The translations under genes were made by a program, and so were the position numbers. The notes beneath the pieces are model-generated. The model was not told the DNA's origin, made no database searches, and saw only the letters and a list, made by a program, of their open reading frames with translations. A DNA stretch of 64,000 bases, taken from positions 124,001 to 188,000 of the forward strand of contig JANQPV010000036.1 of assembly GCA_028285305.1 (NCBI GenBank), written 5' to 3'. This document shows, piece after piece, positions 2,903 to 25,451 of this stretch. Every line of letters starts with the position of its first letter. The stretch's first letter is position 1. The DNA is from Alphaproteobacteria bacterium. Lineage in GTDB: Bacteria; Pseudomonadota; Alphaproteobacteria; SMXP01.

Positions 2903-3421
2903 TTATTGGGTCAGTGCATTAATGACGTCCTCAAGCGCGTTTTGAGCTTTCGCTTTCATTTCATCGTCCGTTGCATCTTGTATCGGATGCTCGACGAAAA
3001 CGCAGCGGGCGTCTTTCATTCCCAAAGCTGAGGCCTGTGTATTCGCAGCCTCGACAAATTCCGTTGAAGCAACGGACACTGCGGGAACACCCTGAATTTC
3101 AAACCAAACCGTGTCATGCAAACTGCATGTAGTGCAGGACCCTCAATCGGCGAGAGCCTCAACGACGTAGTCGCATTCGCCCTTGATGGCGTGCCGAACG
3201 TCATCGGGCGCCGGCTTGGTAAATGTTGGCTTAAAGAATCTCTTAACCTGGACGTCTGGAAGCTGCTCCTTCATGAGTCCTTCTAAGGCATCCAAAAACA
3301 CATCGCCACGCGGCTTACGGATATCCATCAAGCCCACCACGCCGGAAATCGATCCGGTCCGCGGTGTCACTTGACGCTCAACGGGGACCCGCTCGTCTGT
3401 CGGATCAAGAATTGTCGTCAT
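2903..3421 (-). CDS. UGSC-family selenoprotein (UGA at 3143-3145 read as Sec93)
   Basis: Two frames are joined by one in-frame UGA, giving a 172-residue protein. The readthrough reads ADUGSCTTCSLHD, which is the signature of the UGSC family of (seleno)proteins known from marine selenoprotein surveys. Sec93 is followed by Cys96 and Cys99, a likely redox or metal centre; the second half is a small alpha/beta fold including EIQGVPAVSVAS. The start is ATG at 3421. A GU-loop hairpin sits 14 bases after the UGA, and selA, selB, selD and tRNA-Sec are a few kb away, so readthrough is more likely than a nonsense mutation. It is the last gene of the operon, directly after its thioredoxin-fused partner. 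The biochemical role of the family is not established. Confidence 0.88.
3115..3129 (-). promoter_or_regulatory. Candidate bacterial SECIS hairpin of the UGSC gene
   Basis: On the mRNA, CATGCA pairs with TGCATG around a GUU loop, beginning 14 bases after the UGA. Bacterial SECIS elements are stems just downstream of the Sec codon with G and U (or G) in the apical loop, and this one fits in both spacing and loop. It would be bound by SelB. Confidence 0.55.
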
Positions 3422-3485
3422 AGTGCCACTCCTTTTTGAACAGTCACATTTTGACAGAGATCAGCCAAAAGGCAAATCCCGCGAT

Positions 3486-5075
3486 TTAGAATTCGATCTT
3501 CCTCGACACGGACACAGAGCCGATCTCGCCCGTGGCCCAGCCATGGAACGCGCCCGAGAATTTACCCGCATCAGAACCCGCCACCACAATATGAATGTAG
3601 TCCTCGCTGGCGAATTTAGGGACCAGCGCTTCCAACTTGTCTGTGGGCATCTCAGCGGCCCGCGCCTTTTTGAGACCGGAGCCCGACACGTCGTCTTCTA
3701 CCATTTCCTTTAAAGGTCGCGACGTAACCTCTTGAATACGTTGCCTTAAACGCGCCTTGGGATAGTCGCCGCCGGCCGACATGAGGGTGTCGACATGCTC
3801 CGGACACACCACGAGGAGCGTGTCGATAGGTGCCATATGGATTTTCGGCAGAAAGGCGCTCTCCAACCCCAAACCGAGCGAACCTGCGAGCTGGTCGGGC
3901 GTCCTCGACTCTTGGTCCACGATCAATGTGGGACCGCTGGTCATGGCGAAGATCGTAATCACCGAGTCGTCCTTCTCGAACCCACGCTCTACATGGAGAG
4001 GCTCCCAAGGGCTTCGTTCCTCCCACTCCGCAAAGCACATTGTGAACTTGTTCGCATTGCCGAGCGTGGAGCGGTCCGTCCCCCCCGGTTTTGAGCCTCC
4101 GACATTGCGGGTAAGCAATCTCAGCGCACGCCCAATCGTAGCGTTGGCCCGGTTGCCATGCCCCAACGCGCCCAATTGCATGTTCATACCGATTTTGTGG
4201 CGGATGGGACCGTTCACAACCATCACCGGAGACGCGCCCATCGTCGTGGCCATCACCCCATGGATGTTAAACTCATCCGTACACACCGCCTCAACGGCGG
4301 CAATGAGAATCGGCATGTATTCCGGTTTACATCCCGCCATGACGGCATTGATCGCGACTTTCTCTATCGTGACATCCCCCATGTTCGGCGGCATGTGCGC
4401 GATCACGTCTTGGCTGCCGCGGGGCGAGCCGTCCAGCATCCGCATCACACGCTCTGGGATCGGCGGCACCAAAGGAAGACCATCCGAAAACCCCTGATCG
4501 AACATAAACTCGAACACGTCGTCGGAGGGCGCAATCTCGATCTTCCGGGCGCGAATTGGACTATTCTCCGCCTCTGCGCGTAATTTGTCTGCAATGAGAG
4601 GATCAACCGACTTTGAGCCGCAACCGGGTCTCCACTCGGGCAGCGCCGCCCAGTCGGCCCCGCTGGGATCTACGCTCAATGCCTCGCAGATCGTTCGTTC
4701 GAGCGCTTGCCAGTCATCACGTACAAAACCAATGACCGGCTCAGCCGCTTTACCCTCCCCATCACACCAAAAGGCCGTCGGCACAGTTTCAATGTCCCAG
4801 TCAAATGAGACTTTGCAGGCGGAGTCATCAAGTATGCAAACCCCAAGACCGTGGCGCTCAATCAGGATGTCGTTGCCCTCTTTTGTCTGGCCAAGGACAA
4901 GTATGTCTGCCGATCCATTCCACTTTCGATGAAACGCATCCAACACCGGCATGACAAGATTGCAGGTCGGACAATCTTCTTTCACGAAGCAAACAAGGGC
5001 GGGACGACCGGTCGGAAATGAGATCTCGTTGCCGGATCCATCCACCAAAGTGAAGGAGGACATTACATCGGCCAT
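3486..5075 (-). CDS. Thioredoxin-fold protein fused to an UGSC-associated domain
   Basis: A 529-residue protein. The N-terminal ~110 residues are thioredoxin-like, with VCFVKEDCPTCNLV carrying a CPTC active site near residues 35-38. The C-terminal ~340 residues form a separate conserved-looking domain starting around DGLPLVPPIPERV and containing many Met/Asn/Gly-rich helices plus several cysteines; I do not recognise its enzymatic class. The start ATG is at 5075. The gene lies 31 bases after the AhpD-like selenoprotein and 64 bases before the UGSC selenoprotein on the same strand, so the thioredoxin domain may reduce one or both of those Sec centres. The protein itself contains no UGA-encoded residue. 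The function is inferred only from context. Confidence 0.75.
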   Translation of the reverse strand: MADVMSSFTLVDGSGNEISFPTGRPALVCFVKEDCPTCNLVMPVLDAFHRKWNGSADILVLGQTKEGNDILIERHGLGVCILDDSACKVSFDWDIETVPTAFWCDGEGKAAEPVIGFVRDDWQALERTICEALSVDPSGADWAALPEWRPGCGSKSVDPLIADKLRAEAENSPIRARKIEIAPSDDVFEFMFDQGFSDGLPLVPPIPERVMRMLDGSPRGSQDVIAHMPPNMGDVTIEKVAINAVMAGCKPEYMPILIAAVEAVCTDEFNIHGVMATTMGASPVMVVNGPIRHKIGMNMQLGALGHGNRANATIGRALRLLTRNVGGSKPGGTDRSTLGNANKFTMCFAEWEERSPWEPLHVERGFEKDDSVITIFAMTSGPTLIVDQESRTPDQLAGSLGLGLESAFLPKIHMAPIDTLLVVCPEHVDTLMSAGGDYPKARLRQRIQEVTSRPLKEMVEDDVSGSGLKKARAAEMPTDKLEALVPKFASEDYIHIVVAGSDAGKFSGAFHGWATGEIGSVSVSRKIEF

Positions 5076-5105
5076 AGATGGAACCTTCTGAGCGTGAGTC
5101 GTGAG

Positions 5106-6281
5106 TTAAGAGCCCAAAGTATGCACAGCCGAAGCAAACGAATTCAAGCCAAGATCTTCCCGCATTTCTTCGGTTGCGTCTCGCGCATAGTCGTCGAGCG
5201 GGATGCCGGTCCCGTCGGCGATCCTAACCATCCGCTCGAAATTGCCGACAACACCGGCCGCATCGACAAACTCTTCCGGCGATGCCACAGACAAGAGAGC
5301 CGTTCGGGCGGCGGTCAGCTCTTCCTCCGACCCCGCCACGACCGCGTCGGCGAATGCAACCAACTCTTTGGACGCGGGCATCCGGGTGTCGACAGCATCT
5401 ACCCCTTGGACGACCCCATCCAATTCAACTTCTTCACCGAGGGACTGACTGCTCGCACGGAGCAGCATGGCGTGGGCGGTCGTTCAGTAGAAACAGTCGT
5501 TCAGCGCCGACACCCTCCCGGCAAGCAACTCGATCTGCGGTCTCGAGAGGGAACGGCCTTCCGTCACGTGGCCGAATTGTGCAGACGGAATGTATTGCGC
5601 ATTGCTAAGAACGAACCATTCGTACACGGCATTGGGAACGAGGGTCAACGCGCGCGCAACATTCGGAACGCCGCGGCCCGGGGTGAAGTCCTGATCTTCG
5701 GTCATGAACGCATCCGCAGGCACCATGGGAACATAGGCCTCCGCTTCGACCATGTTTTCGGGACGAATCCGCGTCGGCGTTCCATCAACCACCGACGGCA
5801 AGGTGTGCAAAGGCACGCCCAGCCCGCGGCAGGTCTGATCCATACTGCGCATGACGACCACTACGCCCAGCGCTTCCACGTAATGAGCGTCGCTCAATCC
5901 CGCGTCCGCAAGATCGTCAATGGCTTTCTTAGTGATCCGCGTGACATCAGTCACAGCCATATGGACAAGGTCGATAATTGGATAGGGCAAAACGCCCGCC
6001 GTCCCGGGTGCGAGTGTATGTTCACCTTTAAATGTATACGGACTAAGCGCCTTTTTCCGTTCAGCACAATAGGGGCATATGTTCGCCGCGCGCGACTCGG
6101 CAGCAATCGCCAGTCTTTCCGCCCCAGTCCACCACGTTCCCGCACGGCGCAAGCGGGAGAGAACAAAACCATGGGCGTCGGCGAGATCTGAGCGAACGGG
6201 CACCGGGCACCCGGCGAAATCGCCGACAACGGAGTCCAGAACGTCTCGATCAGTCTCGTTTGACAACGCCTTCGAAGACAT
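5106..6281 (-). CDS. Double AhpD-like selenoprotein (UGA at 5484-5486 read as Sec266)
   Basis: Joining two frames across UGA gives 391 residues with two AhpD/carboxymuconolactone-decarboxylase-type halves. The first half has NICPYCAERK (CPYC near residues 69-72) and helices resembling the peroxidase-partner fold. The second half has LNDCFYUTTAHAMLLR, which matches the AhpD signature CxxCxxxH with Sec in place of the second Cys. AhpD proteins are thiol oxidoreductases that reduce peroxiredoxins. The ATG at 6281 lies 10 bases downstream of the membrane peroxiredoxin-like gene, so the two are surely co-transcribed and may be partners. A hairpin with GU in its loop follows the UGA. Substrate unknown. 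Confidence 0.87.
5449..5465 (-). promoter_or_regulatory. Candidate SECIS hairpin of the AhpD-like gene
   Basis: In the mRNA CTGCT pairs with AGCAG around a 7-base loop CCGTGCG that contains GU. The loop begins about 24 bases after the UGA, within the spacing window of bacterial SECIS elements. Confidence 0.45.
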
Positions 6282-6291
6282 CGTGTCCCTC

Positions 6292-7080
6292 TTATTCCTT
6301 TAAAGCGGAACGGACCGCCTTGAGCACCCGTTTCGCATCTGACCGCACGCGGTAATCGCCGGATTGATCAATCCAGCGGATTGTGCCCGCCCCATCGATC
6401 AAGATCGTAGTAGGAACCGCCAAAGGACGTCGCATGCCACGATCATCATTCGGATCGCCTGCAAACCCTTTGGGGTGTCTGACCCCGTAAAGATCGATCA
6501 CCTTGAGCTCGGGATCGGCGATTTGATAGATCGAAATCCCATGCTCATTCCGTACACGGTCCGCTTGCTCCACCGTATTCGGGCTGACGGCTGCCAGCTT
6601 GACGCCCATCTTATTGAATTCGGGTTTCATGTCCTGCCAACGCCGCAACTCGGCGATGCAATACGGTCACCAATGCCCGCGGTAAAACTTGAGCAAGAGC
6701 GCGTCCCCCCCGCCGGGCTCGAATGCAAACTGAACGCCATCCCAATCCTCAGCTTGAAAAGCAGGCGCCTTTTCACCGACATTCACACCAATACTGGCGG
6801 GCACGCCGCCCTGCGAGAACAGGAAAAGAACAAAACTGCCCGCAAGAACGGTCAATCCGGCCAGCACATATCCGAGAATGCCTGGCGAGAGGAAAAAGGA
6901 CCAAACGGCAAGGGCAACGCCGGTAAACACGAGGACCTCGCTCAGCCAGGGACGGCTGCCAAACCCCTTCTTGGCCACCATGATTCTACGGAAATAGAGA
7001 ATCATGCGCCCGAAAACGAAGACAAGGGCGACGGGAATGACGAACCAAGGGTCCTGTAAAAGGGCGGTCATGTACTCCAT
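6292..7080 (-). CDS. Membrane-anchored peroxiredoxin-like selenoprotein (UGA at 6667-6669 read as Sec138)
   Basis: Readthrough of UGA gives 262 residues. The N-terminus has a first hydrophobic segment (WFVIPVALVFVFGRMILYF) and two more around residues 48-90, then a soluble AhpC/TSA-type domain. The active site reads KFYRGHWUPYC: Sec138 takes the resolving/peroxidatic position and Cys141 completes a UxxC motif. The C-terminal half contains VSPNTVEQADR and DLYGVRHPKGFAGD, typical of the peroxiredoxin-like family. It is the first protein gene after tRNA-Sec, whose 3' end is only 45 bases upstream, and is followed 10 bases later by the AhpD-like gene. It probably reduces peroxides or disulfides near the membrane. 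Confidence 0.88.
6641..6655 (-). promoter_or_regulatory. Candidate SECIS hairpin of the membrane peroxiredoxin gene
   Basis: CGCCG pairs with CGGCG around the 5-base loop AGTTG, starting 12 bases after the UGA. The GU in the loop and the spacing match bacterial SECIS elements well. Confidence 0.55.
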
Positions 7081-7125
7081 AGTCCAAGAGCCTACCCGCG
7101 AAAATGAACCAAACGCAAGCCATGC

Positions 7126-7220
7126 TGGCGGAGACGGATGGGAATCGAACCCACCACACGCATTGGCTGCGTGTCACTGGTTTTGAAGACCAGGGAAGCC
7201 ACCAGACTCCATTCGCCTCC
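7126..7220 (-). tRNA. selC: tRNA-Sec (anticodon UCA)
   Basis: A 95-base tRNA ending in genome-encoded GCCA. The 5' end GGAGGCGA pairs with the 3' acceptor strand. The anticodon arm is CTGGT-CTTCAAA-ACCAG, with TCA as anticodon. A long variable arm (ACACGCA pairing with TGCGTGT) and the extended acceptor region are hallmarks of tRNA-Sec. The T loop reads GGTTCGATTCC. It lies 45 bases upstream of the membrane selenoprotein gene on the same strand and may be part of the same transcript. Confidence 0.95.
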
Positions 7221-7340
7221 GGTACGCACATGAACGCGTCACGGATACGTGAACGCCCCTCTATTGTGAACCATACACGTTGGACTATCCAGGGGGCATT
7301 GGGTAGAAAACGAACACCATGAATTCTAGGAAAGAGAAGG

Positions 7341-8405
7341 ATGACGACGGAACCAAAGGTTCGGCTCACCCAATATGCTGCCTCCGCTGGTTGAGCGGGC
7401 AAGTTAGGGCCTGAACACCTGTCGCAAGTTTTGCGGCCGTTGAAAGATATATTTCCGCAAGCTGACTTCCCGGACGTCCTCAGAGGATTGAGTTCACCGG
7501 ACGATGCAGCTGTGCTTAGGATGGGCGACGGCCAAGCGCTGGTGGCCACGACAGACTTCTTTGCGCCTGTGGTTGACGACCCCTATTGGTTTGGCGCCAT
7601 CGCCGCAGCCAATGCTCTGTCGGATATTTACGCCATGGGCGGTCAGCCCACGCTCGCCCTCAACCTGGCGGGTTTTCCCAAAACTCTGGACATGCAGATC
7701 CTCAATGACATTTTACGGGGCGGGGCGGAAAAAGTACGCGAAGCCGGCGCAGTCATCGCGGGTGGCCACTCCACCTACGATGACGAGCCCAAATATGGGT
7801 TGGCGGTGATCGGCATGGTGGCCGAGGACAAGATCTTCACGAACGGCGGCGCGCGACCGGGGGATACACTCTTCCTCACCAAACCGATCGGCACAGGAAT
7901 TATCACCACGGCATTGAAGCAAGGAAAACTGGCCGAGGAAGAGGCCCAACCCGCGGTCGAGAGCATGGCCCGTCTCAACGGCGGCGCGGCCAGGATTTTG
8001 CGGGAATCCCCCGAAAACACCGTACACGCCGTAACGGACATCACGGGATTCTCTTTAATGGGGCATGGCCGGGAAATGGCTGAACAGTCGGGCGTATCCC
8101 TTCGGATCGAATTTTCCAAGATCCCCTTGTTGCCCCATTCCCAAGAGCTTGCCGAACAAGGTGTCGCGCCGGGCGGCGCCGACCGGAACAAAGACTATTA
8201 CGGCCAATGGGTCCATCGTGCTTCGTCCCTGCCGGATTGGTCGGACTTAGCGCTTTATGACCCTCAAACATCCGGCGGTCTGTTGATTGCGGTCGCGGCC
8301 GATCACGCAGCTGACTTATTGAATGAATTCACCGATGCTGACGAACCGGTATGGGAGATTGGACGGGTTCAGTCGGCCAAACCCGGAAGAATTGAGGTTA
8401 ATTGA
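7341..8405 (+). CDS. selD: Selenide, water dikinase SelD (UGA at 7392-7394 read as Sec18)
   Basis: SelD makes selenophosphate from selenide and ATP, the selenium donor for tRNA-Sec. The true start is ATG 7341 with AGGAAAGAGAAGG directly before it; the first 17 residues include RLTQYAASAG and are followed by in-frame UGA, giving GUAGKLGP. Sec thus replaces the catalytic Cys17 of the E. coli enzyme, and the essential Lys is kept, but the second Cys of the usual GCGCK motif is Gly. The ATP-binding segments DDAAVL and ATTDFFAPVVDD, and AGGHSTYD, follow. The protein is 354 residues. A gene caller starting at an internal codon would lose the active site. It is first in selD-selA-selB and divergent from tRNA-Sec. 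Confidence 0.93.
7397..7412 (+). promoter_or_regulatory. Weak candidate SECIS hairpin in selD
   Basis: Just after the UGA, GGGC can pair with GCCT (one G-U pair) around an 8-base loop AAGTTAGG that contains GU. The stem is only four pairs, so this is the least convincing of the SECIS candidates together with that of the soluble peroxiredoxin gene. Confidence 0.25.
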
Positions 8406-8465
8406 GCCCTTTTCTCCCGGCAATCTGGCGTTAAAATGCCCTCTCGAGCAAGAATAGGGCAAAAC

Positions 8466-9866
8466 ATGGATTCCAGCCTTTTTCGCAAGATCCCGCAGAT
8501 TGAGCAGCTCATGCAGCAGCCTGAAATCGCTGCATGTGAATTGGCGTGGTCCCGCTCCGAGACCATCGATGCTCTGCGTGCGATTCTTGGCGAAGTGCGC
8601 GACGAGTTGCGGAGCGGGGAGCCGCTCCCCGACTTTGCCTCTGCTGCATTTGCTGAGAGAGTGCGAACAGCCCTGGAAAAGATGAGGGAACCGAGCCTCA
8701 AGCCACTCATAAACGCCACAGGCATTGTCATTCACACAAACCTTGGCCGCGCGCCGCTGGCACCGGCAGCATTGGACGCAATCAAGTCAACGGCGGCAGG
8801 CTACACCAACATCGAGTACACGCTTGAGACAGGGAAGCGCGGGTCCCGCTATGATCATACGCGAGACCTCCTCTGTGAACTGACGGGTGCCGAAGACGCC
8901 ATCGTCGTCAACAATTGCGCCGCGGCGGTGACGTTGTGCCTCGCCACGTTTGCGAAAGACAAAGAGGTGATCGTTTCCCGGGGGGAACTTATAGAAATCG
9001 GCGGCTCGTTCAGAGTTCCCGACATTATCGCTCAAAACGGAGCCGTCCTTAAAGAAGTCGGGACCACCAACAAAACAAAGCTTTCCGACTACGAACAAGC
9101 GATATCCGAAAACACGGCCGTCTTACTGAAAACCCACACCAGCAACTACAAGATCATAGGCTTTACGGCAAAACCGGCCCTGCAGGAGCTGGCATCTCTC
9201 GCAGAAGATCACGACCTCATCCTGATCGAAGACTTAGGCAGCGGAACTCTTCTTGATCTTTCAGAATACGGAATTGGCGACGAACCCACAGTCAAGCAAA
9301 GGATCTCCGAAGGGGCCCACCTCCTCACTTTTTCAGGCGACAAGCTTTTGGGGGGTCCCCAGTGCGGTATCATCACGGGACGCAAAGACCTGATCGCCCA
9401 GCTCAAGACCAATCCCCTTTTGCGAGCGATGCGAATAGACAAGCTGTCGCTCGCCGCCCTTGAAGCGACATTGCGCCTGTACAAACCTCCTTTCGCGCCG
9501 GAGCAGGAAATCCCCGTGCTGCGCATGCTGACGGCCACCCTTGAAGACCTGGAGCAAAAGGCCGTCAAACTGCAAAACATGCTGGCATCCCAAACGCAGG
9601 CAAACACCAAAGTAGATCGGATCGAAGGTGAGGCCGGCGGTGGATCGCTCCCCGGCACATCTCTTCCTTCCTTCGGCGTCCGCCTTGTCTGCGCGGCGCT
9701 CACCCCAGGTCACCTCATTGACGCATTGCGGCGCAGCCGGCCGCCGATCATTGCGCGAATTACCGGCGGAGACGTAATCCTAGATGTGAGGACCATTTCC
9801 GAAACCGATTTTCACTATGTCACAGACGCCATCGACGACATAAGCCAGCATTCCCTCAGTCAATGA
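8466..9866 (+). CDS. selA: L-seryl-tRNA(Sec) selenium transferase SelA
   Basis: A 466-residue PLP enzyme that converts seryl-tRNA-Sec to selenocysteyl-tRNA-Sec using selenophosphate. The family segments PLINATGIVIHTNLGRAPL (about residues 80-98), GKRGSRYDH and VNNCAAAV are clear, and the PLP lysine is Lys293 in FSGDKLLGGPQ. I chose ATG 8466, which has AGGG at proper spacing; an ATG at 8436 lacks a ribosome binding site. The stop overlaps the selB start by four bases, indicating translational coupling. The gene sits 60 bases after selD. Confidence 0.96.
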   Translation: MDSSLFRKIPQIEQLMQQPEIAACELAWSRSETIDALRAILGEVRDELRSGEPLPDFASAAFAERVRTALEKMREPSLKPLINATGIVIHTNLGRAPLAPAALDAIKSTAAGYTNIEYTLETGKRGSRYDHTRDLLCELTGAEDAIVVNNCAAAVTLCLATFAKDKEVIVSRGELIEIGGSFRVPDIIAQNGAVLKEVGTTNKTKLSDYEQAISENTAVLLKTHTSNYKIIGFTAKPALQELASLAEDHDLILIEDLGSGTLLDLSEYGIGDEPTVKQRISEGAHLLTFSGDKLLGGPQCGIITGRKDLIAQLKTNPLLRAMRIDKLSLAALEATLRLYKPPFAPEQEIPVLRMLTATLEDLEQKAVKLQNMLASQTQANTKVDRIEGEAGGGSLPGTSLPSFGVRLVCAALTPGHLIDALRRSRPPIIARITGGDVILDVRTISETDFHYVTDAIDDISQHSLSQ

Positions 9867-11752
9867 CAGATCAACTCACGATCGGAGTCATCGGTCATGT
9901 CGATCATGGCAAAACCACTTTGGTGAAAGTTCTCACCGGCATGGAGACCGATCGCCTCAAAGAGGAAAAAGAACGCGGGCTTTCGATCGTCCTTGGCTTC
10001 GCCCACATAAAGACAAGTGACGGCATCATCGACGTCATCGACGTACCGGGCCATGAGGATTTCGTTCGCACAATGATTTCAGGTGTGAGTGGTATCGACG
10101 CAGCGCTGATTGTGGTTGCCGCGAACGAAAGAATTATGCCGCAAACCACCGAGCATATCCGAATCGTATCTCTGTTGGGCATCGACCAGGGCGTCGTTGC
10201 GATCACCAAGGCGGACCTGGTTTCAGAAGACGAATTGATTGCGGCGAAAGAGGAAATTGAGAACCATTTACGCACGACTCCGTTTGCAGGCTCATCTCTT
10301 GTGCCCGTCAGTGCAGAGACGGGGATTGGACTAGAAGGTCTCAAATCCGAGTTGAACGCGCTGTTCGCCCTGCGCCCTCCCCGGCCCCAAACCGACCAGT
10401 TCTACCTCCCCTTTGATCGTGTCTTCTCAATGAAAGGACACGGCACAGTCGCCACCGGAACCCTAAACACGGGGACTTTGCGCGTCGGGTCCACCGGCAC
10501 AATCGCCCCCGATGACAGACGAGCGCGCATTCGTGGGCTAGAGGTACACGGACAGTCAGTGGACTTAGCAAGCGCAGGCCAAAGGGTCGCTGTGAATTTT
10601 CGCGTTGATGGAACCGGCCAGATCAAGCGCGGCGACACACTTTTATCCGCAGACTGGCTTCAACCCTCCACCTTTTGGGACGGCACCTTGCATCTGCTGA
10701 ACGATGCGCCCAAACCTCTCAAAAGCGGAGAAAAACTGCGAATACTGCACGGCACAACCGAAGAAATCGTGGCGCTGAGATTACTGGATCGTGATCGCTT
10801 GATCCCAGGAGAAACGGCGAACGTTCAATTCCGCCTGCCTAAACCCGCACTTGCTTGGCACCGTGAGCGCTTCATCGTCCGCTCGATCACACCCGTCACG
10901 ACGATCGGAGGGGGCCAATTCACGGACACACAATCGCGCCGCCGCTCCCGGACGAACGCTGCGTCCACTTTGGTTGACACATCCCCCGCAGGCCAACAAC
11001 TAACGACATTGCGGGCAATGTTGGAAACCGCCGCATTCGAAGGCATATCGAAGGCCGCTTTGTGCGAGCGGATCGGGATTTCCGGCACCGAATTAGCAGC
11101 GCTTCTCATGGAGGCAAACGGCTTTGCCGCGAACGATGAAATCTGCTTCAGCCAAAAGGTCTTAAACTCGCTCGAAGAGAAGCTGCTGCGGACGCTTGCA
11201 ACGTATCATGCACATCACCCTGCGAAAATTGGCATGCCGAAAAAAGAGTTTGTCTCAACCGCTCAGGCGCCTGCCCCTACGGTGGATTTGGTTCTTGCAC
11301 GACTCGTTGAGCGGCAAGCCGTTTCTGAGTCCGGAGGAGCCGTTCACCTTTCTGATTTCGATCCGTTCTCTCATCTCGAACCCGAGCACCGGGAGGCTCT
11401 AACAGCCCTTGAAGCCAAAGTTCTCCAAGACGAATTCACACCGCCAACGCTCAAAGAGCTCGCTGCGCTCAACCCTCTTTACAAAGAGCTCTCTAAGCAT
11501 TTAGTGGAGAGCAACCGTGTGTTCCCGATCTACGATGAAAAACGGACGAATTTGTTCTTTTTCCACCGCGACACCGTCACAAACGCGGTGAAGAAGCTCC
11601 GATCCGCCTTTCCGCCTCCCACGGAATTCCGTGCCGGAGAAGCCAAAGACGTCTTGGGAATGACGCGAAAGTACGCCATGCCTCTTCTGGGTTTTTTGGA
11701 TAAGCAGAAAATCACGAGACGGAACAAAGATTTCCGCAGGCTGGTTCAGTAG
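9863..11752 (+). CDS. selB: Selenocysteine-specific elongation factor SelB
   Basis: A 629-residue translation GTPase that delivers Sec-tRNA-Sec to UGA codons marked by a SECIS hairpin. The G1 motif GHVDHGKT spans residues 11-18, G3 is DVPGH at 60-64 and G4 is TKAD at about 115-118. The C-terminal ~250 residues, from around PAGQQLTTLRAML, have the pattern of the winged-helix repeats that bind SECIS RNA. The start ATG overlaps the selA stop. The length is normal for the family. It is the last gene of the operon and is followed by short tandem repeats. Confidence 0.96.
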   Translation: MTDQLTIGVIGHVDHGKTTLVKVLTGMETDRLKEEKERGLSIVLGFAHIKTSDGIIDVIDVPGHEDFVRTMISGVSGIDAALIVVAANERIMPQTTEHIRIVSLLGIDQGVVAITKADLVSEDELIAAKEEIENHLRTTPFAGSSLVPVSAETGIGLEGLKSELNALFALRPPRPQTDQFYLPFDRVFSMKGHGTVATGTLNTGTLRVGSTGTIAPDDRRARIRGLEVHGQSVDLASAGQRVAVNFRVDGTGQIKRGDTLLSADWLQPSTFWDGTLHLLNDAPKPLKSGEKLRILHGTTEEIVALRLLDRDRLIPGETANVQFRLPKPALAWHRERFIVRSITPVTTIGGGQFTDTQSRRRSRTNAASTLVDTSPAGQQLTTLRAMLETAAFEGISKAALCERIGISGTELAALLMEANGFAANDEICFSQKVLNSLEEKLLRTLATYHAHHPAKIGMPKKEFVSTAQAPAPTVDLVLARLVERQAVSESGGAVHLSDFDPFSHLEPEHREALTALEAKVLQDEFTPPTLKELAALNPLYKELSKHLVESNRVFPIYDEKRTNLFFFHRDTVTNAVKKLRSAFPPPTEFRAGEAKDVLGMTRKYAMPLLGFLDKQKITRRNKDFRRLVQ

Positions 11753-11763
11753 CTGACGTGACC

Positions 11764-11822
11764 CAGCCCTGTCAGGGACCCACCAGCCCTGTCAGGGACC
11801 CACCAGCCCTGTCAGGGACCCA
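11764..11822. repeat. Three tandem copies of a 20-bp unit with internal dyad
   Basis: The unit CAGCCCTGTCAGGGACCCAC occurs at 11764, 11784 and 11804, the last missing its final base. Each contains CCCTG-T-CAGGG, an inverted repeat that could form a small hairpin. The array begins 12 bases after the selB stop. It could slow or end selB transcription, but there is no T-run. Confidence 0.9.
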
Positions 11823-11861
11823 ATTGAAGGGTCAAGCGCAGCTGCCACGAAATCTAGAGTT

Positions 11862-11964
11862 CGTCATTGCGAGTCACCAGAGTGGTGGCAAAGCAATCCA
11901 AGATGCTATCTCCAAGAACCGCGGCTCTGGATCATTTCGTCGCCTACGGCGCCTCGTGATGACG
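11862..11964. repeat. Dispersed intergenic repeat, copy 1
   Basis: This ~103-bp element starts CGTCATTGCGAG, contains AAGCAATCCAAG and CTGGATCA, and ends CCTCGTGATGACG. Its ends are imperfect inverted repeats. It is clearly related, in the opposite orientation, to 36601-36705. Elements of this type are common between alphaproteobacterial genes and look like non-autonomous mobile repeats. Confidence 0.85.
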
Positions 11965-12014
11965 GATTCCCTCAAGAAAGAACCCTCGTTTCTCCAAGAT
12001 GGAGAGCCCCCTTG

Positions 12015-12659
12015 CTAAAGCCCCTTCATCGCTTCCAGCGTCTCTTCCGGCTCCGGACGATAAGTGTAATCCGGATTGGCTTCGGCATAGCGAACCACGC
12101 CGCCTTGATCCACAACAAATCGGCCGGGCATGGGCATCGTCCAGCTGGGATCGTCATTAAACGTGGGCAAGTCGATACCGCCGCCGGAATAGACCTTTTG
12201 AAGATCTTGCGGAAAAACGAAGGTCAGACCGAGCTGCTTGGTATAAGCGTTTTGGGCATCGAACAGAATATCGAAGCCATAGCCTTTTTCTTCGTGGAGC
12301 TTTTTGTTGTGCTCCGTAAGCTGAGGGCTAATGGCAACCAGATTGCCGCCAAGGCCTTGTATGTCACCTAGAATGTTTTGCAGAGCATCCAGCTCCAGCT
12401 TGCAGTACGGTCACCAGGAGCCCCTGTAGATGGTCAGCATAAGGGGACCACGTGCCAATAGGTCGGCGCTCTCAACAGCTGCGCCATCTTGATTGGTTAG
12501 CGTAAAGGACGGGAGCGTTGAGCCGACTTTGATCACACGATCAACGGCCCCGCCTTTGACGAGATCATCCGTTGCCCGGTGCATAATCTCGGCCACCTGC
12601 GGCGGAAAATTCTTCGCTGCAGCCTCCCTCATTTCGGTGAGTTTTTCAGCCAGGCTCAT
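12015..12659 (-). CDS. Soluble peroxiredoxin-like selenoprotein (UGA at 12411-12413 read as Sec83)
   Basis: Two frames joined by UGA give a 214-residue AhpC/TSA-type protein. The N-terminal half includes LPSFTLTNQDG and ends in TIYRGSW; readthrough then gives UPYCKLELDALQ, so the active site is a UxxC motif (Sec83, Cys86), the same motif as in the membrane paralogue at 6292-7080. The second half holds LVAISPQLTEHNKKLHEEKG, FDILFD and FVVDQGG, all usual for the Prx-like family. The start ATG is at 12659 and the true stop TAG at 12015-12017. It is near but outside the main selenoprotein operon. Without Sec it would be called two broken genes. Confidence 0.9.
12391..12400 (-). promoter_or_regulatory. 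Weak candidate SECIS hairpin of the soluble peroxiredoxin gene
   Basis: In the mRNA AGC-TGGA-GCT forms a short hairpin with GG in its loop about 15 bases after the UGA, with a possible outer GCA/TGC pairing. The position is right but the stem is short. Confidence 0.25.
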
Positions 12660-19331: not shown

Positions 19332-20798
19332 ATGGTGGTGCGATTGGGCGCGCCCGGCCGCGGAGGGGCGGTGGGCCGTTGCAAAGTGCTTAGAAGCAGC
19401 AAAGATTTGAACCGCGTTGGGCGGACTGCGCGGGCGCACTCTTATCCTTTGTGTTTGGGCAAAAGAGTTTTTGCCGTTGGGTTTGTCATGACTTGTTTTG
19501 CAACAAACGTTTACGCACAAGGCCCGAGCTATGTTCCCCCGCGCGCAGATCCTCAAACCGAATTCCGGGTTTCTTTCGAAGCGTTGCAGCAAAATCCCAC
19601 CGACACGAGCGCCATTTGGCGCTTTGTGGCAGCTGCTACGGAGATCGGAGATTACGAGGCAGCCATCGGCGTCCTGGAGCCATTGTTGCTCGTCGACTCG
19701 AGTCAGCAGGTCATCCGCTCCGAGGTAGGTTTGTTATACTATTTGCTCGGCTCCTATGCCGCAGCCGAACCCCATCTCAGGCAAGCACTTGACTCCGGCA
19801 AGCTCTCGCCCAAGCGCGAAAGCCTGGTGCGCCGAGCCCTATCGACGACCCAAAAGCGGAACCGGCGAAACTCACTGACCGGGTCAGTCACGCTGGGCGC
19901 GCGGCACCAATCCAATCCCACAGCATTTCCGGAATCGGATTCCGCAACCGTCGGAGGAACGGATATCGCATTGGCCGATGAGTTTGTGCGCGACAGTGAC
20001 ACCAATGCGTTCGCGTCTGGCTGGCTTCACCACAAATTCGACCTGGATTGGCAAAACGAAGCCGCCTTCGACACGCGAATCTACGCCTATGCAACCCGTC
20101 AATTCGAAGCCACAGAAACCAATGTGCTGACCGCAACCATCGAACCGGGATTCTCATTCCGTCCCCTACGTAAGACCGCACACTGGCTGGAGCTGAGGCC
20201 GCACCTCGTTGGCAACGCGTTGAGCATTGAGGATCAACTCTACGCGCTCACCTACGGTGTCGGAGCTGACCTGGGCGCCGACTTCGAAAGCGGAATCAAA
20301 GTTAACGTTCGCTACCAGTTCCGCGAGCGCGACTTCAGGTCAAGCGCCGAACGTCCGCTCGCGGATGATCTAGACGGAAACGAACATCACTACAAGCTGA
20401 GCATTGGCGCCCCTCTACCCTCCAATTTTACGATCGTTGCAAAGGGTTACGTTATCGCAACCAACGCCGATGCCGAACGGCGCGACAACATAAACTATCT
20501 CATTTCCGGCGCCCTCTATAAAGACTACAAGGCGCCCCTTGGCATTGGCTCGACGAACTGGCGCGCCTGGATCAGACTGGACCGGGAGTACAGGAATTTC
20601 GACAATGTGGACCCGGTAATCAGCACCACAATCAAACGCGAGGACCGTCGATGGATCGTTTCCGCCGGCAATACGGCGAACATATTCGAACAAATCGACC
20701 TCAACATTGAATACACATACTATGACCAATCATCGGCCTTTCGTCAGTACGAGTATTCCAATCACACGGGCACCCTTAGCCTGTCTTACCTGTTTTAA
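19332..20798 (+). CDS. TPR plus outer-membrane beta-barrel protein (SLAM-like architecture)
   Basis: A protein of up to 488 residues. A hydrophobic stretch VFAVGFVMTCFATNVYAQ near residues 48-65 looks like the core of a signal peptide, so the N-terminus may be annotated too long; ATG 19332 is the first ATG and a TTG at 19284 is also possible. About 100 residues of TPR-like helices (YEAAIGVLEPLLL, YAAAEPHLRQAL) follow, then ~320 residues of alternating strands ending in LSLSYLF, an outer-membrane barrel C-terminus. This arrangement is that of surface lipoprotein assembly modifier-like proteins, a tentative comparison. It is followed 10 bases later by the FecR-domain gene. Confidence 0.7.
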   Translation: MVVRLGAPGRGGAVGRCKVLRSSKDLNRVGRTARAHSYPLCLGKRVFAVGFVMTCFATNVYAQGPSYVPPRADPQTEFRVSFEALQQNPTDTSAIWRFVAAATEIGDYEAAIGVLEPLLLVDSSQQVIRSEVGLLYYLLGSYAAAEPHLRQALDSGKLSPKRESLVRRALSTTQKRNRRNSLTGSVTLGARHQSNPTAFPESDSATVGGTDIALADEFVRDSDTNAFASGWLHHKFDLDWQNEAAFDTRIYAYATRQFEATETNVLTATIEPGFSFRPLRKTAHWLELRPHLVGNALSIEDQLYALTYGVGADLGADFESGIKVNVRYQFRERDFRSSAERPLADDLDGNEHHYKLSIGAPLPSNFTIVAKGYVIATNADAERRDNINYLISGALYKDYKAPLGIGSTNWRAWIRLDREYRNFDNVDPVISTTIKREDRRWIVSAGNTANIFEQIDLNIEYTYYDQSSAFRQYEYSNHTGTLSLSYLF

Positions 20799-20808
20799 GG
20801 GGCATCCA

Positions 20809-21684
20809 ATGGTTCACTCGGTAAAGCACGTTCTCCTTGGTCTCGCAGTCACCGCAGCACTTATCGGTCCGGCATCAACCCAAGAACTTGAAAAGGCCGG
20901 TGTTTCCAGCGTCGTGAACCCGGATGCGTCGTCTTATTTTGATCCGTCCAAAGCAAAGAAAATCTTCGCCGGCGACAACATCTACCGTAATCAAACCATC
21001 GAAACCAACTCCAACGGCCAGGTCCAAGTCTTATTTGTCGATAGAAGCTCATTGACGGTCGGACCCAACTCGAGGGTCGTGATCGATGAGTTCGTGTACG
21101 ATCCAAATCGCAACGCCAGCGGCATGGCGATGAGCGTCACAAAAGGCGTCATGCGATTTGTTGGCGGCAAATCGAGTAAACAACAAAGCGTGGACATCGA
21201 AACACCGCAAGCGACGATTGGCATCAGAGGCGGCATCGTCCTGGTGAGGATCATAAATGGCCAAGTCCAGGCCATCTTCCTCTATGGCGATGAGTTAACC
21301 GTCGAATCGAACACAGGTGAAACCGCGTCCGTGACCCGGCAGGGCTTTATGGTGACCGTTAATCCGGACGGCTCCCTCGACATCAGCCGGGCAAGCGATG
21401 CCAACATAAACGGCATTCTCCAGGATCTGCAGGCTCAAACCGACGCCCAATTGGCAGATGGCACGACGATCAACTTAGGCGCCATCGACGACGAGACCAT
21501 CGATCTGCTGGCCAATGCGGATGCCGCGGGGCTCGGCCCTCTCACGCTCGAAGAACTCGAAACCGAGCTGGGCATCGACTTCGATCGATTCGAAGAAATC
21601 CGCGAGATTGTGGAGGAGAACCGGCCTGATCCTGAGCCGGATCCCAAGGACGACCCCATCATCATTTTGTGCGGCAACTGTTAG
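20809..21684 (+). CDS. FecR-domain exported protein
   Basis: A 291-residue protein with a signal peptide (residues 1-24, ending near ASTQ). The FecR-type domain spans about residues 45-190: VLFVDRSSLTVGPNSRVVIDEFVYD and SVDIETPQATIGIRGGI are its typical strands. The C-terminal third is acidic and ends in a short CGNC. Such secreted FecR proteins, without a sigma factor, often accompany adenylate cyclases and beta-barrel export systems. I chose ATG 20809 with AAGGGG upstream. It is co-transcribed with the preceding barrel protein. Confidence 0.82.
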   Translation: MVHSVKHVLLGLAVTAALIGPASTQELEKAGVSSVVNPDASSYFDPSKAKKIFAGDNIYRNQTIETNSNGQVQVLFVDRSSLTVGPNSRVVIDEFVYDPNRNASGMAMSVTKGVMRFVGGKSSKQQSVDIETPQATIGIRGGIVLVRIINGQVQAIFLYGDELTVESNTGETASVTRQGFMVTVNPDGSLDISRASDANINGILQDLQAQTDAQLADGTTINLGAIDDETIDLLANADAAGLGPLTLEELETELGIDFDRFEEIREIVEENRPDPEPDPKDDPIIILCGNC

Positions 21685-21769
21685 AGGCGCACTTCGGCAA
21701 GCAGCTGTAAGTTTCTCCTGCCACCTGAAAAGCGCCAATTCTCAAAAAAAATCAAAAAAATCTGCCTAG

Positions 21770-21783
21770 GTGATGCCCATCAC
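21770..21783. promoter_or_regulatory. CRP-type operator, second site
   Basis: GTGATGCCCATCAC has the same half-sites as the sites at 18933 and 23031. It lies 72 bases before the micro-ORF at 21856, after an A-rich tract. Confidence 0.65.
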
Positions 21784-21855
21784 ACAGTTTCGCACGCCCT
21801 CCTCCTATCTTCAGTTTCAGAGAGAGGAACAACTCAAACCCAAGAGGGCAAGACA

Positions 21856-21963
21856 ATGAACTTCGAAACCAAAACCCAGCAGATCCCCTTCGCACTGACC
21901 GCCACGATCGCCGCTGCTATTCCCTTTGTTTCGATCGTCCTCACCGGGCTGTTGGGCCTCTAA
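21856..21963 (+). CDS. Micro-ORF 2: 35-residue hydrophobic peptide
   Basis: ATG at 21856 follows GAGGGCAAGACA and encodes 35 residues with a polar start (MNFETKTQQ) and one transmembrane-length core (ALTATIAAAIPFVSIVLTG). It is the first of two micro-ORFs between an upstream CRP-type site and a downstream terminator. The ribosome binding site and topology support real translation; function unknown. Confidence 0.5.
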   Translation: MNFETKTQQIPFALTATIAAAIPFVSIVLTGLLGL

Positions 21964-22027
21964 AAACGAGAAACAAAGAATTCAGAGACACGCTTAAAGC
22001 GAAAAAGCAAACACAAAGGGTAAAAAA

Positions 22028-22123
22028 ATGGACACCGGAACATTCATCTACATCTCAATCGGCTTAGTTGTTTTCTGCCAGATGATCGCCGTTGGCTCGG
22101 CCTTTATGCGCCCTGCCAAATAG
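22028..22123 (+). CDS. Micro-ORF 3: 31-residue single-pass peptide
   Basis: ATG at 22028, after AAAGGG, encodes 31 residues: a hydrophobic helix IYISIGLVVFCQMIAVGSAF and a basic end MRPAK, which predicts an N-out, C-in membrane peptide. It lies 64 bases after micro-ORF 2 and 41 bases before the terminator stem, so both are probably on one transcript. Not recognised. Confidence 0.5.
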   Translation: MDTGTFIYISIGLVVFCQMIAVGSAFMRPAK

Positions 22124-22164
22124 ACCACGAAACTCCTTCCCCAAGCACCACACGTGCACCACTG

Positions 22165-22199
22165 AAAACGCCGAGGCTCACACCCTGCCTCGGCGTTTT
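22165..22199. terminator. Terminator of micro-ORF 2-3 unit, probably bidirectional
   Basis: AAAACGCCGAGGC and GCCTCGGCGTTTT form a perfect 13-pair stem around a 9-base loop, with T-runs in both directions. Confidence 0.85.
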
Positions 22200-22297
22200 C
22201 GCATTGTACGCAACCCTCCGATTGCTCAAAGTCGCTGAGGATCGTAACATCTCTCCAAGAGCCCAGCGGTGTTGGTCATCCGGGCGCTCCAGGCCTG

Positions 22298-23011
22298 ATG
22301 GAGATCCAGATCACTCAGATAGAAACAAAACTCCCGGACAATCTTCCTCCCGACACGATCTTTGCAAAAATGTCGGACGAGGAACGCAGAGGCCTTTTGA
22401 AGCTTGCAACAACCAAAAAGCTGTCACGGGGCGACGTACTCTACGAGCAAGGCGAGATTGGCCTAAGCCTCGCGATTATAACGAATGGCCTCTTCAAGAT
22501 TTGCGTCTACTCCTCCGAGGGAAAAGAGATTGTCTTTGACTATGTCGGCAAGGGCAACGTCATTGGGGAAATCAGTCTCTTTGATGGCAAGCCAAGAACA
22601 GCAAGTGTGATCGCGGTTGAGTCCGGCGAAGTGCTGGTGCTGCAGAAGTCCGAAGTGCTGCCCTATCTTCAGCACCATGGCGACACGGCGCTCAAGATCA
22701 TTGCCTGGCTCTGCGAGAGACTGCGGAAAACGGACGCTCTGATTGAGCAAAACATGTCCCTTGCCATGGAACCCAAGTTGGCGCGGGGACTGTTGAGGCT
22801 GGCAAGCGATCACGGCAAGGAAAATCAAGACGGCACGATTGATGTCAAAATCCGCCAAAGTGATGTCGGAAGCTATGTGTCTCTGGCCCGTGAAAATGTG
22901 AATCGGCAACTACGGGAATGGGCAGACTCGGGGATCGTGGAATTGACACGGGGCCACATCATCATCCGCGACCAAGACGCCCTCGAGGATATTGCGCACG
23001 ACCTGGAATAG
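22298..23011 (+). CDS. CRP/FNR-family transcription regulator, probably cAMP-responsive
   Basis: A 237-residue regulator. Residues ~20-130 are a cyclic-nucleotide-binding domain; the phosphate cassette reads IGEISLFDGKPRTASV (about 89-104) with the Arg-Thr pair that contacts cAMP in CRP. No FNR-type N-terminal cysteines are present, so no iron-sulfur cluster is expected. The winged helix has LARENVNRQL, where Arg198, Glu199 and Arg203 align with the CRP residues that read GTGA. This agrees with the GTGAT-N4-ATCAC sites around it. The start ATG 22298 has only a weak AGG upstream. Directly downstream is an adenylate cyclase gene, the likely source of its ligand. Confidence 0.85.
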   Translation: MEIQITQIETKLPDNLPPDTIFAKMSDEERRGLLKLATTKKLSRGDVLYEQGEIGLSLAIITNGLFKICVYSSEGKEIVFDYVGKGNVIGEISLFDGKPRTASVIAVESGEVLVLQKSEVLPYLQHHGDTALKIIAWLCERLRKTDALIEQNMSLAMEPKLARGLLRLASDHGKENQDGTIDVKIRQSDVGSYVSLARENVNRQLREWADSGIVELTRGHIIIRDQDALEDIAHDLE

Positions 23012-23030
23012 CGGGGCCAACCAGCACGGG

Positions 23031-23044
23031 GTGATATGGATCAC
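23031..23044. promoter_or_regulatory. CRP-type operator, third site
   Basis: GTGATATGGATCAC lies between the CRP-like gene and the adenylate cyclase gene, 151 bases before the latter's start. It suggests feedback control of cAMP synthesis. Confidence 0.6.
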
Positions 23045-23195
23045 AGACCGCCAATCCTTCGAAATGTAGAAGACGGGAACGAATACAGATTCATGTCTAA
23101 ATCACGCTGCGCTGCTTATAGTCTGTGCCATAAAGATCAAAGACTTACGACGAAGCCTTGAGTCAGAAAATCAGAATTCGGAGGGGCCCCAGAAC

Positions 23196-25451
23196 GTGGC
23201 GGGACACACGAAAAAGGCAATCAGTTCGCGACAACGGCGCTGGTACTTGATAGGGATTGGTCTCACCCTGATGGCAATAATCTTTGTCGCGCACAGCGTC
23301 GGTACGAGGACCCAGAACCCGCTCACCAATTTAGTGTTCGACACGTATCAGAGAATTCTGCCCCGTCCCTACAGCCCAGCACCGGTTACAATTGTCGACA
23401 TTGACGAAGAAGCTCTGGCGCAGTTCGGCCAATGGCCTTGGCCGCGCACGCGTTTGGCCGACTTGACCGACCGCCTATCGACTGCGGGCGCAGCGGCCAT
23501 TGCCTATGACATTATTTTTGCAGAGCCCGATCGCACATCTCCGAACCGACTTATCCCCATCATCGAGGGCAATCCGCTCGTCGAGCGAACATACAGCGAG
23601 CTCTCTTTGCTGGCGGACCATGACGAGATCTTGGCCCGGTCTTTTGAGGCGGCCCCCGTCGTAGACGGCTTGGTCGTCTCTCGTGGCCAAACAGAGCGAA
23701 AACCCCCTATCAAAACCGGGCTCGTCTATTCGGGCTCATCACCTGCATCGATCCTCACTCCCTTTGAAGGCGCAATCACATCCCTGCCTGTACTGACAAA
23801 TGCGACTAAGGGCACGGGCAGCATCAGTTTGTTGGGCGACAACGATCGCATTGTCAGGCGCATTCAATTGTTCTCGCGCATCGGCGACCAGCTCGTCCCC
23901 TCACTCAGTTTGGAAGCGCTCAGAATAGCGCAAGGCGCAAAGTCTCTCATAATCCGATCGAGCGACGCCAGCGGCGAGATCAGTGGGGGCGACCCTGTCT
24001 TTACATCTGTCAAAGTCGGCGAGTTTGAGATCCCGACCAACGAATTGGGCGAGGCGTGGGTGTATCACACAAAGCCCCAACCTCAGCGCTTCATATCTGC
24101 TGCACACGTCCTAAATCCCAACACGACCCTGCGGGAGCTGACCGAAAAGTTCTCAGGACACATCGTATTCGTGGGCGCCGGGGCCACTGGTCTAAGGGAC
24201 ATCATCGCCACGCCCATCACACCCTATGAGGTTGGTGTGACCGTCCACGCAGGATTCACGGAGCAGGTGATACTCGGTCAACACCTTGTGCGACCCGATT
24301 GGGCAATCGGTTTTGAACGAACCATCATCATATTGATTGCAGCGACCATAATCGCCTCGACTATCCTGGCCGGAGCGATCGGAACGGGCGCCCTTACAGC
24401 TCTCAGCATCGCGGCCGTCGTGGCATATTCCTGGCATTCATTCTCCACTTCGGGTTTCCTCGTGGACCCCGTATTTCCCGTCTTGTCATCAATTGCTCTG
24501 TTTTCGGTTTTAACCGCTTACAGATTTTTTCAAACCGAGCGAGAAAAAGGAGAAGTCAGACGCGCGTTTAGCCAGTATCTTTCTCCCGCCCTCGTTGAGC
24601 GCATTGCCAATGACCCCAGTGTTCTCAAACTCGGCGGAGAAGAGCGCGAAATTTCAATTCTGTTTGCAGATATCCGCAACTATTCCAGTATTTCGGAGAA
24701 CCTGTCTCCGGAAGAGCTAACTGAACTTCTCAACCGGTTTTTGTCTCCTATGACAGATACACTCCTCCGGCATGGCGCAACGATCGACAAGTATGTGGGA
24801 GATTCCACCATCGCCTTTTGGAACGCGCCGCTCGCCACCCCCGACCACGAAAGAACAGCCATAGAGGCAGCCCGCGCCATGGCGGGTGAACTCAGGGCGC
24901 TCAACGCCCAGCTCAAAGATCAAAACACACCGTTTGGATCGAAGGGTATTCGGATCGGAATTGGCATCGCGTCCGGACCTGCGTGTGTTGGCAATCTTGG
25001 GTCCGACGCCCGCTTCAGCTACTCGGCGATTGGCGACACCGTTAACCTGGCAGCCCGCCTGGAAGGACTGACAAAACAGTACCAGGTTCAGACCATTTTA
25101 GGCGAAAACACGCTCTCCGGCCTAGCGGACGACTGCACATTCGAGTTGGATCGCATTCGCGTTGTCGGCCGTAAAAGACCGGAGAAGATCAGCACACCCG
25201 TATACCCGCCCGCTGGAGCATCCGGAGAGCAGTGGGAGACGATCCATCGCTCGCACCAAGAGATGCTCGAATTTTACCGCACGCAAGATTGGGAAGCGGC
25301 CCTCGCAAAAATCGAAGTATTGAAAGAGGATCCCGCTATAGAAAACGAGCTCGGTGGTTACTACCAAGTCATGTCGGACAGAATAACCGCATACCAATTA
25401 TCTCCCCCTGGCGATAACTGGGATGGAGTGTTTACGGCAACGGAAAAATGA
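23196..25451 (+). CDS. CHASE2-domain adenylate/guanylate cyclase
   Basis: A 751-residue membrane cyclase. An N-terminal transmembrane segment (about residues 13-30) is followed by an extracytoplasmic CHASE2 sensor domain (about 35-355, with VTIVDIDEEALAQFGQWPWPR), then three transmembrane helices and a class III catalytic domain (about 460-650). The metal-binding aspartates are in LFADIRNYSS and DKYVGDSTIAFW. A ~80-residue C-terminal tail follows. The start is GTG 23196 behind GGAGG. It probably senses an envelope signal and makes cAMP for the CRP-like regulator encoded just upstream. Confidence 0.88.
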   Translation: MAGHTKKAISSRQRRWYLIGIGLTLMAIIFVAHSVGTRTQNPLTNLVFDTYQRILPRPYSPAPVTIVDIDEEALAQFGQWPWPRTRLADLTDRLSTAGAAAIAYDIIFAEPDRTSPNRLIPIIEGNPLVERTYSELSLLADHDEILARSFEAAPVVDGLVVSRGQTERKPPIKTGLVYSGSSPASILTPFEGAITSLPVLTNATKGTGSISLLGDNDRIVRRIQLFSRIGDQLVPSLSLEALRIAQGAKSLIIRSSDASGEISGGDPVFTSVKVGEFEIPTNELGEAWVYHTKPQPQRFISAAHVLNPNTTLRELTEKFSGHIVFVGAGATGLRDIIATPITPYEVGVTVHAGFTEQVILGQHLVRPDWAIGFERTIIILIAATIIASTILAGAIGTGALTALSIAAVVAYSWHSFSTSGFLVDPVFPVLSSIALFSVLTAYRFFQTEREKGEVRRAFSQYLSPALVERIANDPSVLKLGGEEREISILFADIRNYSSISENLSPEELTELLNRFLSPMTDTLLRHGATIDKYVGDSTIAFWNAPLATPDHERTAIEAARAMAGELRALNAQLKDQNTPFGSKGIRIGIGIASGPACVGNLGSDARFSYSAIGDTVNLAARLEGLTKQYQVQTILGENTLSGLADDCTFELDRIRVVGRKRPEKISTPVYPPAGASGEQWETIHRSHQEMLEFYRTQDWEAALAKIEVLKEDPAIENELGGYYQVMSDRITAYQLSPPGDNWDGVFTATEK

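Follow-up and report, generated by a model that had tools for sequence, protein, structure and literature searches.

A selenocysteine island with its own decoding machinery in an alphaproteobacterium, and a candidate reductase formed by UGSC and a partner gene

The 64,000-nucleotide stretch of alphaproteobacterial DNA analysed here (the window; contig C73:124001-188000 of a draft genome of 5.4 Mb in 77 contigs) carries a well-conserved selenoprotein island in which five genes with an in-frame UGA stand together with their own selenocysteine (Sec) decoding machinery, the gene families being already known. The explanation in which we have good confidence as a whole is that of a chromosomal Sec island in which the selenoprotein UGSC and a neighbouring partner protein of 529 aa would form a thioredoxin-driven reductase, and whose core would be a heritable and exchanged, but non-mobile, unit.

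According to this explanation, tRNA-Sec, SelA and SelD would make Sec-tRNA, and SelB would insert Sec in vivo at the five UGA codons, guided by the hairpin directly 3′ of each. The products would constitute a thiol/selenol redox set composed of two UxxC peroxiredoxin-like (Prx-like) proteins, one of which is probably membrane-anchored, a CxxU AhpD-like protein, SelD and UGSC. UGSC would act together with its partner, whose thioredoxin domain is the probable electron donor of the Sec/Cys pair in UGSC, and the remaining products are consistent with a peroxide/disulfide defence set. The decoding set would also serve further selenoprotein genes of the genome. The island core would be inherited as a unit that, in relatives, has been exchanged between families, without itself being a mobile element.

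In-frame UGA codons and their hairpins

UGSC, the 529-aa gene, the AhpD-like gene, the first Prx-like gene and tRNA-Sec form a row on the minus strand, followed by selD, selA and selB on the plus strand and by the second Prx-like gene, again on the minus strand (Table 1). UGSC, the AhpD-like gene, both Prx-like genes and selD contain exactly one in-frame UGA each, always at a redox motif, and the proteins joined by reading through it all score over the curated cut-offs of their Pfam and NCBIfam profiles. An earlier note on this DNA, made from the letters alone, had proposed tRNA-Sec, selA, selB and these five genes; ARAGORN, Rfam and family profiles confirm them all, and the joined proteins match known families with the UGA at UGSC, CFYU, UPYC (twice) and SAGU. 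Its expectation that standard annotation would split every one of the genes holds in part: UGSC is split in two in one submitter-annotated record, but NCBIfam now has (seleno)protein models for UGSC and for the CFYUT type of AhpD-like protein (AhpD-CFYUT).

The UGSC loci were collected via the partner gene and are therefore not selected for UGA, which stands at the Sec codon in 96 of them. Cys replaces Sec (CGSC) in 8 UGSC relatives from haloarchaea, Arthrobacter, Roseovarius and Variovorax, so that Cys homologues at the UGA position, which the earlier note had foreseen, do exist. One in-frame TGA is present in 25/25 AhpD-CFYUT relatives scoring over the cut-off, and in G123, a genome from another family of the same class, UGA occupies the same codon in all five island genes. 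At a single locus of the 77 named ones (L126, Candidatus Blastococcus massiliensis), the UGSC Sec codon is UAG, which agrees with the UAG-decoding tRNA-Sec of Geodermatophilaceae, a family for which this tRNA and UGSC selenoproteins had been reported (PMC5330540). At locus L224 (7407-7976, Paracoccus ferrooxidans pFER4), UGSC with its in-frame UGA is annotated as two hypothetical proteins; both the partner gene and selB are no more than 5 kb away, and an IS5 element is found 3′ of selB.

Because the assembly is a draft in many contigs, the split frames might be read as ordinary Cys genes damaged by frameshifts, nonsense mutations or assembly errors. The probability of this is virtually nil, because the UGA is conserved across independent genomes: G123 and tens of relatives have UGA at the same codons, each of the five independent genes shows one UGA at a redox motif and no other in frame, and the Sec machinery sits among these genes.

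A hairpin with the geometry of a bacterial Sec insertion sequence (SECIS), such as the earlier note had predicted, is found 3′ of the UGA in all five genes, with its loop 16-33 nt past the UGA, and its position is the same in G123 in each case. In UGSC, the stem RUGCA-GUN-UGCAY is paired in 98% of cells over 75 sequences and covaries at one pair by G-C/G-U/A-U exchange, the observed values being reached by at most 3 of 500 shuffles. The codons of this hairpin are strongly biased (Ser is AGT in 67/67 cases, Cys is TGC in 73/74, and Leu and Val are NTG only), unlike the Ser and Cys codons immediately past the UGA, which are mixed. The putative SECIS element of UGSC is thus backed by both covariation and codon choice, and its consensus is usable for finding further members. 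The stem of the first Prx-like hairpin is CGCUG-AGUUG-CAGCG in G123, a compensatory change on both sides relative to the window. The selD hairpin keeps its loop in G123 and shows a one-sided change at the stem base (U-G to U-A), and the second Prx-like hairpin is identical there, that is, conserved without covariation. The AhpD hairpin is paired to 95.6% over 18 sequences. Two results speak against the SECIS assignment: the covariation of the AhpD hairpin in these 18 sequences is no better than that of shuffles, and the hairpin energies 3′ of the five UGAs are no more favourable than in other parts of these genes. Hairpin energy was dropped as a SECIS test for being uninformative.

The earlier note had also treated the island as the whole package, which it is not. 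Other contigs of the genome bear at least six more genes in which a UGA falls at a redox motif, namely five of the AhpC/TSA type, with their UGA in a UxxC or xxUGC motif, and a second gene for AhpD-CFYUT (loci L191, L193, L195, L200, L203 and L150; contigs C9, C39, C8, C5 and C51); genome-wide counts of this kind are lower bounds from family searches. In a genome search with the tRNA-Sec model, the window copy is the sole strong tRNA-Sec, and the outside selenoprotein genes must rely on the decoding set of the island.

UGSC and its partner gene

The 529-aa gene between UGSC and the AhpD-like gene, absent from the earlier note, adjoins UGSC in nearly all of 80 loci, the few exceptions being mostly cut contigs, and these loci span Alpha- and Gammaproteobacteria, Chloroflexota, Actinomycetota, Myxococcota and others. 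In its AlphaFold model (predicted local distance difference test score, pLDDT, 91), the N-terminal 134 residues form a DsbE/ResA-like thioredoxin domain with CPTC (structure match Z 18.5). The C-terminal ~350 residues have no family match in Pfam or NCBIfam, and in a structure search with the whole model the match lists are filled by the thioredoxin domain. Shorter partner relatives without the thioredoxin domain also adjoin UGSC-like genes. In plasmid records, UGSC and a separate partner gene stand beside trxB-trxA (Arthrobacter), beside trxB (Roseovarius), with trxB nearby (Variovorax) or beside an NAD(P)/FAD oxidoreductase gene (Haloterrigena). A thioredoxin domain fused to the partner in one lineage and thioredoxin genes adjoining it in another suggest that the system is fed by thioredoxin. 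No partner relatives were found in viral contigs.

The fold predicted for UGSC is flavodoxin-like alpha/beta with five strands (pLDDT 93). UGSC has no sequence match in the PDB; structure searches with it give a top Z of 10.8, shared with a designed protein, and indicate a common alpha/beta fold only. In profile comparisons, 28/51 members match GrdF (best E 1e-5) and 26/51 match GrdB (best E 8e-6), and GrdH is matched as well; the alignments cover profile positions ~325-411 of 431-435 each time, with the Sec site included. UGSC may work like selenoprotein B, whose Sec-bearing domain is matched in one register, if weakly, by over half of the members. Together with the thioredoxin link, this likeness makes a thioredoxin-driven reductase the best guess for the UGSC-partner pair, one to which we give slightly less than an even chance. 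A possible further likeness to the Grd systems is that thioredoxin or thioredoxin reductase genes lie near the pair in some relatives, not in general, and that the window has a fused thioredoxin-like domain.

Several results count against a kinship with selenoprotein B or a role of this type. The similarity to GrdB is short and weak (~40-90 residues, E 1e-5 to 0.1), the UGSC protein of the window taken alone has no selenoprotein B match, and a survey of the genes neighbouring the UGSC-partner pair found no family in more than 6/115 or 5/100 neighbours and no consistent pathway. In contrast to GrdB, GrdF and GrdH, UGSC is ~170 aa long and lies far under the curated cut-offs (best 25 bits against 602 for selenoprotein B), and for its partner Pfam and NCBIfam give no match to a Grd subunit. 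Because its scores are this far under the family cut-offs, UGSC is not filed as a selenoprotein B member. The PF07355 matches in the genome of the window are other, Cys-type proteins. UGSC could instead be another thioredoxin-fold, peroxidase-type selenoprotein of an oxidative-stress set, with no kinship to selenoprotein B, as its Prx-like and AhpD-like neighbours in the window and the thioredoxin-like fold once proposed for it (PMC2398784) would suggest. This is unlikely, since the predicted five-stranded fold is flavodoxin-like, most UGSC genes have no peroxiredoxin neighbour, and the matches to GrdB, GrdF and GrdH would be left aside.

Inheritance and probable exchange of the island core

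The same nine genes occur in the same order in G123, with protein identities of 55-80%; the last Prx-like gene is there 5.6 kb further off from selB, is 70% identical to the window copy and has the UGA. The named loci closest to the window in the RpoB and island trees belong to Alphaproteobacteria. A compact core of selA, selB and tRNA-Sec within a few kb of the partner gene and UGSC is present at 17 alphaproteobacterial loci. In the tree of four core proteins, two Hyphomonas-type copies group with Rhodobacterales, against RpoB, and a constraint that holds the five Hyphomonadaceae rows together, a group defined from the RpoB tree, is rejected by the approximately unbiased test (p-AU 1.6e-5). 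The same conflict appears in each half of the core, with p-AU 0.003 for SelA and SelB alone and 1e-5 for the partner and UGSC alone; that both halves conflict alike with RpoB matches the prediction of co-transfer. In the core tree, another copy from Hyphomonadaceae (L061) joins the window and G123, again against RpoB. These trees support co-transfer of the core among Alphaproteobacteria, which appears clear for the Hyphomonas-type and Rhodobacterales copies and is not shown for the copy of the window. Elsewhere in the class, genome G007, from another family, has at locus L054 selA, selB and tRNA-Sec followed by an AhpD-CFYUT and a Prx-like gene, a second case of AhpD beside Sec machinery. Although the contig of L078 bears the label Candidatus Sulfopaludibacter (Acidobacteriota), its genome has an RpoB that falls among Hyphomonadaceae, and the bin is probably mislabelled.

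The earlier note had suggested that the whole package moves as a unit, and in its strongest form this would mean a self-mobile genomic island, an integrative element carrying the whole Sec trait between cells. The recurrence of the block in G123 amid unrelated flanks and the agreement of both core halves against RpoB give indirect support to the part about a unit. No gene order is common to the flanks of the window and of G123 over the stretches compared, four genomes of the window's own family have no strong tRNA-Sec (accepted in relatives only at 68 bits or more, the Rfam model also scoring long-arm tRNAs up to ~54 bits), and the two of these four that were searched for the partner gene and AhpD-CFYUT have neither. 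In Paracoccus, a plasmid typed as conjugative bears the partner and UGSC with UGA, and UGSC, the partner and selB stand together on another replicon, which also bears ribosomal protein S1 and thus resembles a chromid. Mobility of the island itself is nonetheless improbable. Among the 20 flanking proteins scanned with Pfam, which are part of the flanks only, there is no integrase or transposase; no long direct repeat spans both island ends; GC content overall and at third codon positions (GC3) is ordinary, with no compositional anomaly; and at least six selenoproteins are encoded elsewhere in the genome. Nor is there a sign of insertion into a tRNA gene, tRNA-Sec being the only tRNA in the window. 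Since the divergence of the island between the window and G123 is not below that of RpoB, whose identity of 79% is similar to values within the window's family, recent transfer is not seen for the window copy.

With that RpoB identity, the data are compatible both with an old transfer and with old inheritance followed by losses. Ancient vertical inheritance with loss in small-genome relatives, and no transfer of the window copy, would account for the comparable divergence of island proteins and RpoB, for the ordinary composition of the island and for the genome sizes (1.9-3.2 Mb in relatives without the island, 5.4 Mb in the two carriers). The differing flanks, within the stretches compared, and the grouping of L061 with the window and G123 tell against it. 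We give this history a nearly even chance; it concerns the past of the window copy only and is compatible with a Sec island whose core is inherited as a unit and exchanged in relatives.

Two further features of the window are recorded here. Directly 3′ of selB, a 20-nt unit, CCAGCCCTGTCAGGGACCCA, is present in three perfect tandem copies (11763-11822). At 20707-25448, genes for FecR, a Crp-type regulator and a CHASE2-cyclase adjoin each other beside a large TPR-type protein.

Table 1. Features of the selenocysteine island, in window coordinates
Feature	Position	Strand	Details
UGSC-family selenoprotein gene, 172 aa, motif UGSC	2903..3421	-	Sec UGA 3143-3145; NF041046 169.1 bits (cut-off 125), E 6e-50; PF24696 163 bits, E 1e-47
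UGSC SECIS-type hairpin	3115..3129	-	6 bp stem, GUU loop; loop 19 nt after UGA
UGSC partner gene, 529 aa, no UGA	3486..5075	-	TlpA/ResA-like thioredoxin domain with CPTC and ~350 aa C-domain
Alkylhydroperoxidase-related (AhpD-like) selenoprotein gene, 391 aa, motif CFYU	5106..6281	-	UGA 5484-5486; NF041238 422.3 bits (cut-off 175), E 1.7e-126
Hairpin 3′ of AhpD UGA	5450..5464	-	Loop CGUGC
Peroxiredoxin-like selenoprotein gene, 262 aa, motif UPYC, hydrophobic N-terminal segments	6292..7080	-	UGA 6667-6669; PF00578 85.3 bits (cut-off 26), E <1e-21
Hairpin 3′ of first Prx-like UGA	6641..6655	-	CGCCG-AGUUG-CGGCG
tRNA-Sec (selC), anticodon UCA	7126..7220	-	ARAGORN; Rfam RF01852 78.3 bits (cut-off 47)
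selD, selenophosphate synthetase, motif SAGU	7341..8405	+	UGA 7392-7394; TIGR00476 382 bits, E 2.2e-114
Hairpin 3′ of selD UGA	7422..7436	+	UCGCAA-GUU-UUGCGG
selA, selenocysteine synthase	8436..9866	+	TIGR00474 587 bits, E 2.9e-176
selB, Sec-specific elongation factor, C-terminal winged helices	9863..11752	+	4 nt overlap with selA; TIGR00475 311 bits, E 1.5e-92; PF09106, PF09107
Second peroxiredoxin-like selenoprotein gene, 214 aa, motif UPYC	12015..12659	-	UGA 12411-12413; PF00578 78.3 bits (cut-off 26), E <1e-21
Hairpin 3′ of second Prx-like UGA	12383..12395	-	GAGC-UGGAU-GCUC

Known systems and significance

Dense clustering of Sec genes with a decoding set, which the earlier note regarded as unusual, is real here but has precedents. 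The fdoGHI-selABCD clusters of Alpha-, Beta- and Gammaproteobacteria, for which exchange between classes has already been proposed (PMC8124441), likewise place Sec decoding genes beside the selenoprotein genes that they serve; the decoding set of the window differs in serving UGSC, AhpD-CFYUT and Prx-like proteins, not formate dehydrogenase, and in having tRNA-Sec apart from selB. The SAO and Tso multi-selenoprotein operons and the Prx-like/AhpD-like pairs are also precedents of clustered genes (review PMC13188914). Several selenoprotein genes are clustered in the SAO and Tso operons as in the window, whose protein families are others and whose cluster includes the decoding machinery.

UGSC was described as a major family in the Global Ocean Sampling (GOS) survey, in places fused to 'Unknown_1' (PMC2398784). 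The UGSC protein of the window resembles the NF041046/PF24696 family, which is mostly Sec-containing, in sequence and in its UGSC motif, and departs from the survey's description in its regular partner gene and flavodoxin-like predicted fold. The AhpD-like protein is a full-length match to the CFYUT type (NF041238) over the cut-off, with CxxU and no sequence difference, and its gene stands in a row with those for UGSC and a Prx-like protein; no AhpD-CFYUT gene was found on plasmids.

The gene families were thus catalogued before, and what is new is the reading of UGSC and its partner as a two-part module. We tentatively propose, at rather less than even odds, that the pair is an unrecognised thioredoxin-driven reductase, a minimal relative of the glycine-type reductases that is spread from bacteria as far as haloarchaea, which have the Cys form, and that it is the pair for which many Alphaproteobacteria keep a compact, transferable Sec set. 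All five selenoprotein families of the island have been catalogued, most of them without a known function, and gene linkage gives UGSC a testable one, that of a two-component reductase whose thioredoxin is either built in or encoded alongside. The linkage also reveals a Sec-decoding unit that is small, natural and portable.

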